From Chitinophagales bacterium (GTDB taxonomy: Bacteria; Bacteroidota; Bacteroidia; Chitinophagales; JADJOU01), in NCBI GenBank assembly GCA_030832185.1, contig JAURJQ010000007.1, positions 1 to 36,943 of the forward strand: 36,943 bases of DNA, in the 5' to 3' direction. The translations under genes and the position numbers were made by a program. A model generated the notes under the pieces. It was given only the letters and a program-made list of their open reading frames with translations. It did not search any database and was not told the DNA's origin. This document shows positions 20,150-36,400 of the stretch, in pieces; the first letter of the stretch is position 1, and each line of letters starts with the position of its first letter.

Positions 20150-20165
20150 TCCCGCACGTGCGGGA
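20150..20165. repeat. 16-bp perfect palindrome in the gap before accD
   Basis: The palindrome TCCCGCACGTGCGGGA lies in the 249-bp gap between the aminopeptidase gene and accD. No U-run follows it, so it is not a terminator. Its TCCCG...CGGGA ends are shared with the palindrome at 33692-33711, which suggests a family of short palindromic repeats. The rest of the gap (20067-20315) shows no convincing gene. Confidence 0.6.
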
Positions 20166-33420: not shown

Positions 33421-36400
33421 ATGAACCACTATACTGTATTTATATTCTTTTTACTATATGCTAGTAGTCTATTTAGCAGGAATATTTTAAATACAAGTTT
33501 ATCGAACAGTAGTGTTCTATTTGAAGAAAACTGTGGGCAAATCAAATACCCTGACGATATGCCGGCTACTGAAGTCAAATATGTTTTCAAACAAGGAAAT
33601 CTCAAGATTTTCTTATTAAAGACTGGACTGGCTTATCAATTAGAAAAATACGAACAAGATACAAATCAACTAAACTTACTTCCCGAAATCCATCCCGATA
33701 GCTATCGGGATTCGGGAAGTTTTTCTACCTACCGCATAGATATGGAGCTAGTCGGTGCCAATCCCCATGCAGAAATCATAGCCGAAGGCAAAAGCCAAGA
33801 CTATACCAACTATTATCAACCTGACTTAATACAAACACATTCCTACCAAAAAATAATCTATAAAAACATCTACCCTGGTATCGACTGGGTTATCTACCTA
33901 GCCAAAGATATAGAAACGGAAGAACCCACAAACGACAATTCAACATTAAAAATTAATCATTCAAAATTATTCAAATACGACTTCATCGTCCACCCCGGCG
34001 CTGATCCTGCTCTAATCAAACTCAAATACAAAAACGCTGAACAAATCTACCTAGACCATTTTGGCAACCTTATTCTTCGAAACCGATTAGGAGATATAAG
34101 AGAAAATGCACCCGAAGTATTTCAAAATCAAAAGAAACTAACCGCCAACTATCTGCTCAGAGACAGTATAGTCAGCTTTCAGATAAAAAACTATAATAAA
34201 GCAGAAAACCTCATCATAGACCCAAAGCTCGAATGGAGTACCTATTATGGTGGTTCAGGAATAGAAAACGCCTATGGGACTCTGATAGATAGCAATGGCG
34301 ATTCATATCTATACGGCTCTACGACATCATCTACAGGTATAGCCTATAATGGATTTCAAAACAACTATAATTTTAATTTGACAATAAACAAATTTAATGG
34401 ATTACTTGTCAAATTTAATTCTCAAGGAAATCGCATCTGGGCTACCTACTATGGAACTGGGTTATATTTTGATTGTGCGACTATCGATTTTAATCAAAAT
34501 TTAATTTTATGCGGTGAAACTTGGATTAACAATCCTTCCATTGCCTTTAATGGCCATCAAAGTGCGCATGCTGGTCAGATCGATGGTTTTATCGTAAAAT
34601 TTGACTCCAGCGGCAGTCGTTTATGGGCGACCTATTATGGTGGATCTGGAGATGAAAATATATCAGATATACAAGTCGATAGCGGAAATGCTATTATTTT
34701 CTGCGGTAGCACCAATAGCAATCATAATATAGCTATTAATGGATATAGAGATAGTTTTTATACTAAAACTAATGCATCAGGACCAATTATACATAATACC
34801 TTTTTAGTTAAGCTCAATTCTTCAGGAGTGAGACAATGGGGCACATATTATGGGCTTGGATATGGTGGAGCCAATATTATAGTAGACTCCAATGATCAGA
34901 TATATTTAAATAATTTAATAAACCCTGTAGATACATCCTATTTATTCACTTCAAACTATTCGATAAATACTCCAGGTCCATTTTTAATGTATCTAGCTAA
35001 ATTTCGTTCGAATGGCACTAGAGTTTTTGGTAAATCCATCGGGCAAAATTTTGCATTTAACGGTGGAGCGTTTAAATTTCATAAAAACGATAGTTCATTA
35101 TATCTAATTTCAGCTTATAATGGTGTTTCAAACCTTCAACCAATCTTGTCCACTGGGTTCAAAATGACTGTATCAGCAGATGATTTGATTATAATAAAAA
35201 TGGATAAGTATGGAAATACAAGATGGGAGAGCTATTGTGGGGGAAATTTTAATGATAGGGATCCAACTATGGCCTTTGATAAACGGAATAATATCTATAT
35301 AGGAGGCACGACCACCTCTACCGCGGGTATTTATCATAAGGGGCTAGATAGCACTCTGTCGGGGTCTAATGATCTATTTGTAACAAAAGTATCACATTTA
35401 GGGACCGTCATTTGGTCTAGTTATTTTGGAGGTAATACATTTGAAGAACATCCTGATTTACAGATAGATAAAATGAATAACTTATATATATCAGGCTATA
35501 CCGGATCAAACTCTGGCATTAGCTACCTAGGTCATCAAAATAATCACAATGGGGGAAATTTTGACGCTTTCCTTATGAAAATTTCTTGTAATCGATATGA
35601 TACTATCCGAGACACCATCTGCCGTGGGGATACGCTGCTTTATAGATCTAAAAAATACTCCCAAGCAGGCTTCTACACTGATTCTTTACTCACCTGGGAC
35701 ATTTGCGACAGTTTGATTACCCTCCACCTCACCGTGCTCAGAAAAGATACGACCTATCTCTACGATACTATCTGTTCAGGTACTAGCTATGTCTGGAATG
35801 GAGTGAATAGAACCACTAGTGGAGTCTACCGAGATACACTTGTAAATAATGTAGGATGTGATAGTTTTTTGATTCTGAATCTTCTCGTAAAGCGAACGGA
35901 CTCGGTGCAGGTCTATGATACGCTATGCAATAATGTGCCTAAGACCTTCAATGGTCAAAACCTCACGATGGCAGGGGTTTATCGAGATACGTTTATGAAT
36001 GCAGTGGGCTGCGATAGTCATATTTTCTATCATTTTATCCCTAAGCCTATTTATGAAACACCTCTCAGCAGAGCTATCTGTGCGAATGATAGCAGTCTTT
36101 TTGGTGGCAAGTATAGAAAGTTAGCAGGTGTTTACTTTGATACCTTAAAAACAATACGAAACTGTGATAGTGCGCTGAAACTAACGCTGACCATAAACCC
36201 ACTCGACACGAATAGACAGACACAGGCTATCTGTAGAGGGAAGTCTTATAATTTCTACAGTCAAGTTTTGACGAGCCAAGGGACTTATAGCCACAAATTC
36301 ACGAATAGAAATGGTTGTGATAGCACCATTTTATTGACCTTGTCTGTTATCGATAGTTCGACCTATAGCTTTAATAGAATGCTGTGCAGTGGTCAGTCTT

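Follow-up and report, generated by a model that had tools for sequence, protein, structure and literature searches.

Palindromic repeats inside and outside genes

REPs are short hairpins that lie mostly between genes and are sometimes found in open reading frames (ORFs) or within larger palindromes. A GTAG or CGTC tetranucleotide marks one of their ends, and the GTAG repeats often lie near genes for REP-associated Y1 transposases (RAYTs) (PMC3733652). MITEs measure 70–300 bp and have terminal inverted repeats (PMC3733652). RPEs are palindromic inserts of about 100–150 bp that are read in frame within ORFs, and different RPE families can occupy one site (PMC3767692, PMC10969869); RPE-4 and RPE-6 end in CGTC (PMC3733652). 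A 2024 review considered repeat-driven protein change, as with the RPEs of Rickettsia, to be conceivable in other prokaryotes (PMC10969869).

The locus described here lies in a 36,943-nucleotide stretch of DNA (the window), where a 43-bp palindromic element is read in frame inside a surface-protein gene. Its inner part is a copy of a dispersed 18-bp repeat, named F1. The F1 family is new and untagged; it belongs to the known REP/RPE-like kind of short palindromic repeat that occasionally ends up within proteins.

Like REPs and BIMEs, F1 is a dispersed short stem-loop that is mostly intergenic, sometimes in ORFs and sometimes nested, but its flank preference is two-sided and it replaces 2–6 nt; neither a GTAG/CGTC tag nor a neighbouring RAYT was found. 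It shares with MITEs a small, non-autonomous and dispersed nature, but it is 18 bp long; on balance a few bases are lost at its sites, and no clear target-site duplication is seen. The likeness to RPEs is that F1 copies in ORFs are read through in frame, with no stop, and that one site can hold different fillings, as in the palindromes of the DUF7948 loop described below and in the LuxE-family loop of genome G001. In contrast to RPEs, F1 is untagged, mostly intergenic and found in Bacteroidota and in viral contigs, and it is set apart by the described RPE length. The initial annotation had likened the element to REPs and to the Rickettsia elements; the in-frame reading and the mostly intergenic distribution bear this out, but the lack of a tag and of a neighbouring RAYT leaves membership in either class unsupported.

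A two-tier hairpin in a DUF7948 gene

The element has the composition ACTTCCCGA-AATCC-ATCCCGATAGCTATCGGGAT-TCGGGAAGT, read from the bases. The coordinates, the 9-bp arms, the one-sided 5-nt bulge and the 20-bp inner palindrome that had been annotated initially match the bases exactly. The features are as follows.

about 33421–36942/36943, plus strand: large surface-protein ORF, 1174 amino acids seen, open at the window end (ORF call)
33520–34224, plus strand: DUF7948 domain (PF25778), residues 34–268, E = 4.1e-47; contains the element
33678–33686, plus strand: left outer arm ACTTCCCGA, part of an older hairpin common to five homologous genes
33687–33691, plus strand: one-sided 5-nt bulge AATCC
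33692–33711, no strand assigned: inner perfect palindrome of 20 bp, ATCCCGATAGCTATCGGGAT
33693–33710, no strand assigned: F1 dispersed repeat unit of 18 bp, TCCCGATAGCTATCGGGA, with a 7-bp stem and a 4-nt centre
33712–33720, plus strand: right outer arm TCGGGAAGT; a TTTTT run starts at 33720
33679–33720, plus strand: codons 87–100 (LPEIHPDSYRDSGS), encoded by the element, with HPDSYRD from the F1 core

The ORF, called like all genes here by its length only, is uninterrupted across the element, in agreement with the claim that the element is in frame, and LPEIHPDSYRDSGS forms residues 87–100 of the protein. The element had been placed between two DUF7948-like halves; it lies instead within a single DUF7948 domain. 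The placement of the loop is based on alignment, as the AlphaFold model was built from a two-sequence alignment and has a mean pLDDT of 31, and no solved relative of the domain was found.

The RNA of the element folds as a two-tier hairpin at −24.7 kcal/mol, compared with a shuffle mean of −10.4 (z = −5.3), and none of 200 shuffles matched this energy. Loop-free palindromes with arms of at least 10 occur just twice in 820 kb of the own genome, in the window and at contig 7:28101, and both are ATCCCGATAGCTATCGGGAT.

The inner palindrome is a dispersed repeat

The 43 bp had been taken as one repeat, but recurrence in the genome is limited to the inner 18–20 bp, and the outer arms are a feature of the gene family. 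For the inner part, the expected further copies are present: three exact and four near ones in this genome and hundreds elsewhere, against 0–1 for the reversed control. In the own genome (2.2 Mb in 31 contigs, 98.95% complete), CCCGATAGCTATCGGG is found three times exactly and seven times at two mismatches or fewer, with a control count of 0. The same string is exact in 14 of 60 relatives, again with a control of 0. Across a phylum sample of 395 genomes, the 18-mer TCCCGATAGCTATCGGGA has 186 exact copies in 28 genomes (1–34 per genome), all of which belong to the window's own class, and the reversed string, a perfect palindrome of identical composition, does not occur at all. When the 4-nt centre was left free, 399 copies were counted in 44 chosen genomes versus 1 for the reversed control, so that the unit is best written as TCCCGAT-N4-ATCGGGA. 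The centre is mostly AGCT, but it varies freely.

The exact 18-mer is also present in 37 viral stretches in IMG/VR. The number of copies per genome is at most 45 in the sample. Because complete single-contig genomes carry F1 (for example G368 and G157), its movement and the enzyme are open to experimental search. None of the open-access papers searched contains the core string. One near-copy, C19, with two mismatches and in the other frame, is probably due to chance.

A shared neighbour gene was considered as the mobiliser of F1, and only homologous phage or viral contigs share neighbours. Alternatively, F1 could be a strict REP, mobilised by a RAYT that is now gone from the own genome. RAYT-type Y1 genes are indeed common (41/60 and 35/46 genomes), published REPs are also known within palindromes and genes (PMC3733652), and in the wider class sample F1-positive genomes carry somewhat more Y1 genes (Mann-Whitney p 0.002), with genome size as a confounder. 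However, no Y1 transposase is found in the own genome at its 98.95% completeness, nor in the F1-bearing genomes G002, G032 and G034, and the order sample shows no association (10 of 14 genomes with F1 versus 31 of 46 without). No Y1 gene was found near any F1 copy, and the Y1 genes examined have no F1-like sequence in the surrounding 1.5 kb or so; several of them have other palindromes such as CCCGTGGTTTCAACCACGGG. F1 also lacks a GTAG or CGTC end, each being found directly at F1 just once in 238 ends, and its flank preference is two-sided. We therefore consider a strict REP origin unlikely.

The Y1 genes in L334, L337, L113, L126 and L125 are flanked by perfect or near-perfect palindromes of their own (CCCGTGGTTTCAACCACGGG, CCCACGGTTAAAACCGTGGG, CCCAGGGTTTAAACCCTGGG), and they likely represent a Bacteroidota RAYT-REP set distinct from F1. 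Elsewhere in the window, an intergenic 16-bp perfect palindrome, TCCCGCACGTGCGGGA, at 20150–20165 has the same TCCCG..CGGGA ends as F1.

The outer hairpin belongs to the gene family

In the aligned DUF7948 homologues, one loop carries the arms ACTTTCCGAA..TTCGGAAAGT or variants of them in five genes: the window gene, L049 and L050 from G002, L051, which is a paralogue on contig 10 of the own genome, and L066 from G003. The inner palindromes on this stem are F1 in the window (ATCCCGATAGCTATCGGGAT), a decayed F1 in L049 (ATTCCGATAACTATCGGGAT), ATCCGCCGAGGCGGAT in L050, CTAGCCTCGGCAGCCTCGGCTGG in L051 and GGTCTAGGACC in L066. The amino acids of the loop vary freely among the five, and the palindrome persists. 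As the arms are common to these genes and the inner palindromes differ, the outer hairpin predates the split of the five genes, and exchange or insertion of the inner palindromes came afterwards. The proposal that a palindromic repeat had entered the gene is thus upheld, with the amendment that the two tiers have separate histories.

The encoded residues had been suspected to be an insertion. They form a length-variable loop, which holds a palindrome in four more homologues and is shorter or different in the distant sister clade L052–L057, without a comparable long palindrome. The same residues were not found apart from a palindrome: L049, with the similar residues LPEVNSDNYRDSGSF, has a slightly decayed one. 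There is no filled and empty orthologue pair for the window's insertion; the nearest homologue is also filled, and the nearest empty one is the sister clade. A search for the locus among relatives returned a single relative, a Saprospirales MAG, which matches the G002 homologue. The arms ACTTTCCGAA..TTCGGAAAGT were also considered as a dispersed family, and the one match in 20 genomes is itself in a DUF7948 gene.

Selection for the hairpin as an RNA or DNA structure (an attenuator, an mRNA stabiliser or a translation pause), with mobility as an incidental feature, would account for part of these observations. The outer stem is retained although the encoded amino acids vary, with both partners changed in three of its ten pairs across four distinct sequences; the RNA fold is strong, five T follow the stem, and the sole truncated gene copy, L066, has one broken and one wobble pair. 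The paired-change signal is modest: it comes from few sequences, the score is reached by 17 of 500 shuffled sets, and arm-templated mutation would also yield double changes. Moreover, the sister clade does without the hairpin, and the same core is found in unrelated places. The GC-rich hairpin followed by a T run is reminiscent of an intrinsic terminator, and some F1 copies do lie in terminator-like hairpin loops (L262, L294), but this hairpin is inside an ORF, and a consensus terminator scan did not call it at 33678–33720 despite the T run. Maintenance by structural selection is rather improbable.

A second DUF7948 loop, before KYDFIVHP, contains other in-frame palindromic repeats in some homologues: CCCTCTCCAAAGGAGAGGG in L056, a related LSKGEG type in L053 and L055, and CHSELDSES..KKMLKQVQH in L049. 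A DUF7948 gene of G003 (L066:440-500) is truncated at the palindrome of the first loop and continues into unrelated sequence, in the manner of a breakpoint.

F1 replaces a few bases and in some contexts sits at hairpin tips

The surroundings of F1 were compared in 118–119 non-redundant contexts, with at most a handful of copies read per genome; these contexts share ancestry to some degree and are not phylogenetically independent. For 18 of 119 contexts the sequences analysed include the same flanks without F1, mostly in other copies of a repeat; when the flanks were re-paired, this was so for 1 and 3 contexts. All but one of the 18 empty sites have 2–6 nt where F1 stands (17 sites), as in CTCACCCC[TAACCC]CTCTCC, GGCGGCTAC[TTACT]CTCCCACC and GGAGAG[GGGCT]GGGGG, and target duplication was not seen. 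Direct repeats of at least 2 at the junctions occur in 14 contexts versus about 9 expected, which gives no clear target-site duplication.

Outer stems of at least 8 bp surround F1 in 9 of 119 contexts, where 0.4 are expected and 300 re-pairings never gave more than 3. Stems of at least 10 bp occur in six (0.2 expected, maximum 2), and the copy in the window is among the six. Most of these outer stems bear no relation to one another, and some are the terminator-like ones mentioned above. A stem of at least 6 bp is missing in 103 of the 119, so that hairpin tips are a preference at most. The flank preference is two-sided and follows YNV|F1|BNR, with T at −1 in 15 and A at −3 in 14 of 238 ends (p about 1e-23).

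Such symmetric flanks, together with the perfect symmetry of the unit, its exact conservation across families and its mostly intergenic position, would also be expected of a conserved binding site for a two-fold symmetric DNA-binding protein. Against this, the centre varies freely, copies are found in pseudo-tRNAs, other repeats and protein loops, no neighbouring genes are common to the F1 copies outside homologous viral contigs, and F1 replaces pre-existing bases as a block, which makes a binding site very unlikely. A chance palindrome or an in-place quasi-palindrome (template-switch) mutation is hardly credible for the inner core, since the same 18-mer is found hundreds of times and its composition-matched control not at all, even though palindromes with arms of at least 8 are not rare overall (33 versus 23 in a Markov control) and template switching could keep the outer arms matched.

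F1 copies read in frame

Only 10 of 118 contexts lie in ORFs of at least 100 amino acids, compared with surroundings that are 75% coding; F1 thus avoids genes and is mostly intergenic. Within ORFs it is read as PDSYR in nine of the ten cases and as PIAIG in one, and the third frame, which has TAG, is not used.

The own genome contains a second, independent in-frame insertion at contig 16:46643, where the variant TCCCGATATCTATCGGGA is read as TPDIYRD in a LuxE-family gene (PF04443) that is present in 58 of 60 relatives. The extra residues are absent from 17 of 19 aligned homologues, and at the same point G001 has six different residues, LLVQTR, and G004 a short insert. A further F1 copy, in G002, occupies one loop of a type 9 secretion tail domain (L087, PF18962).

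Proposed origin of the element

We put a probability of about 75% on the reading that an F1 copy makes up the inner 18 bp and is set on the tip of an older hairpin in a permissive DUF7948 loop, and infer that the copying took place in trans. F1, as a dispersed non-autonomous hairpin repeat, would have entered the DUF7948 gene before the species split from its relative G002 and landed at the tip of the hairpin that was already there. It would have survived because PDSYR(D/E) is an open reading of hydrophilic character and changes in length are tolerated by the loop; most likely, the insert in the protein is neutral loop filler. Read most economically, the process is symmetric and acts in trans: it would replace a few bases, with assistance from DNA in a single-stranded or cruciform state. 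Such a process may open a short stretch of DNA, favour hairpin tips (as a cruciform or as lagging-strand single-stranded DNA), remove a few bases and leave a fixed hairpin in their place.

A broader reading, which we regard as tentative and somewhat doubtful, is that F1 represents a distinct mobile class: an 18-nt symmetric hairpin with no coding capacity, tag or recognisable transposase, which a symmetric activity swaps for 2–6 nt, preferring the hairpin tips of repeats, terminators and tRNA-gene loops. If so, the in-frame matches in proteins would be side-products, and F1 would drive loop growth across a bacterial class.

F1 provides a Bacteroidota case and extends to another phylum what is best known from Rickettsia: its repeat unit is defined, a genome can hold up to dozens of copies, and there are both in-frame examples and empty sites. 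Two features, the replacement of 2–6 nt and the location inside hairpins, offer specific hints at the mechanism.

F1 in tRNA remnants, longer repeats and viral contigs

Hairpins of the F1 family were observed in copies of tRNA genes at L074:1920-2130, L079:1990-2130, L083:1985-2070 and L006:380-470, the last being a similar tRNA remnant in the own genome (contig 27:446). These copies are treated as degenerate because ARAGORN does not call them. Those in L074 (G003) and L079 (G001) adjoin intact tRNA-Met and tRNA-Ala genes, respectively. In both, CTCAG of the D-arm is swapped for an F1-family hairpin, and in L074 this also applies to ATAAT of the anticodon loop. A segment on the T-arm side is replaced in the same way in one degenerate copy.

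Longer repeats can also hold F1. An imperfect inverted repeat of about 100 bp, TTAACCGCAAAGAGCGCAAAG..CTTTGCGCTCTTTGCGGTTAA, is common in genus g58 and is found in L276 and its relatives L299 and L301. In G368 the inside of this repeat has been rearranged and F1 stands between the end sequences, and in this orthologous case at L276 the outer stem seemingly derives from the rearranged repeat end and not from an intact older hairpin. In G042 (L089–L101), 12 of 13 F1 copies form the central part of a longer dispersed repeat, which is conserved and has imperfect inverted arms.

A reverse-transcriptase gene follows F1 at a distance of 28 bp in three viral contigs (L246:7749-8516, L259:9861-10866 and L260:2578-3571); the gene matches PF00078 in the two that were scanned, and repeated variable-protein-like genes lie upstream. 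This arrangement resembles a diversity-generating retroelement that has a two-tier hairpin.
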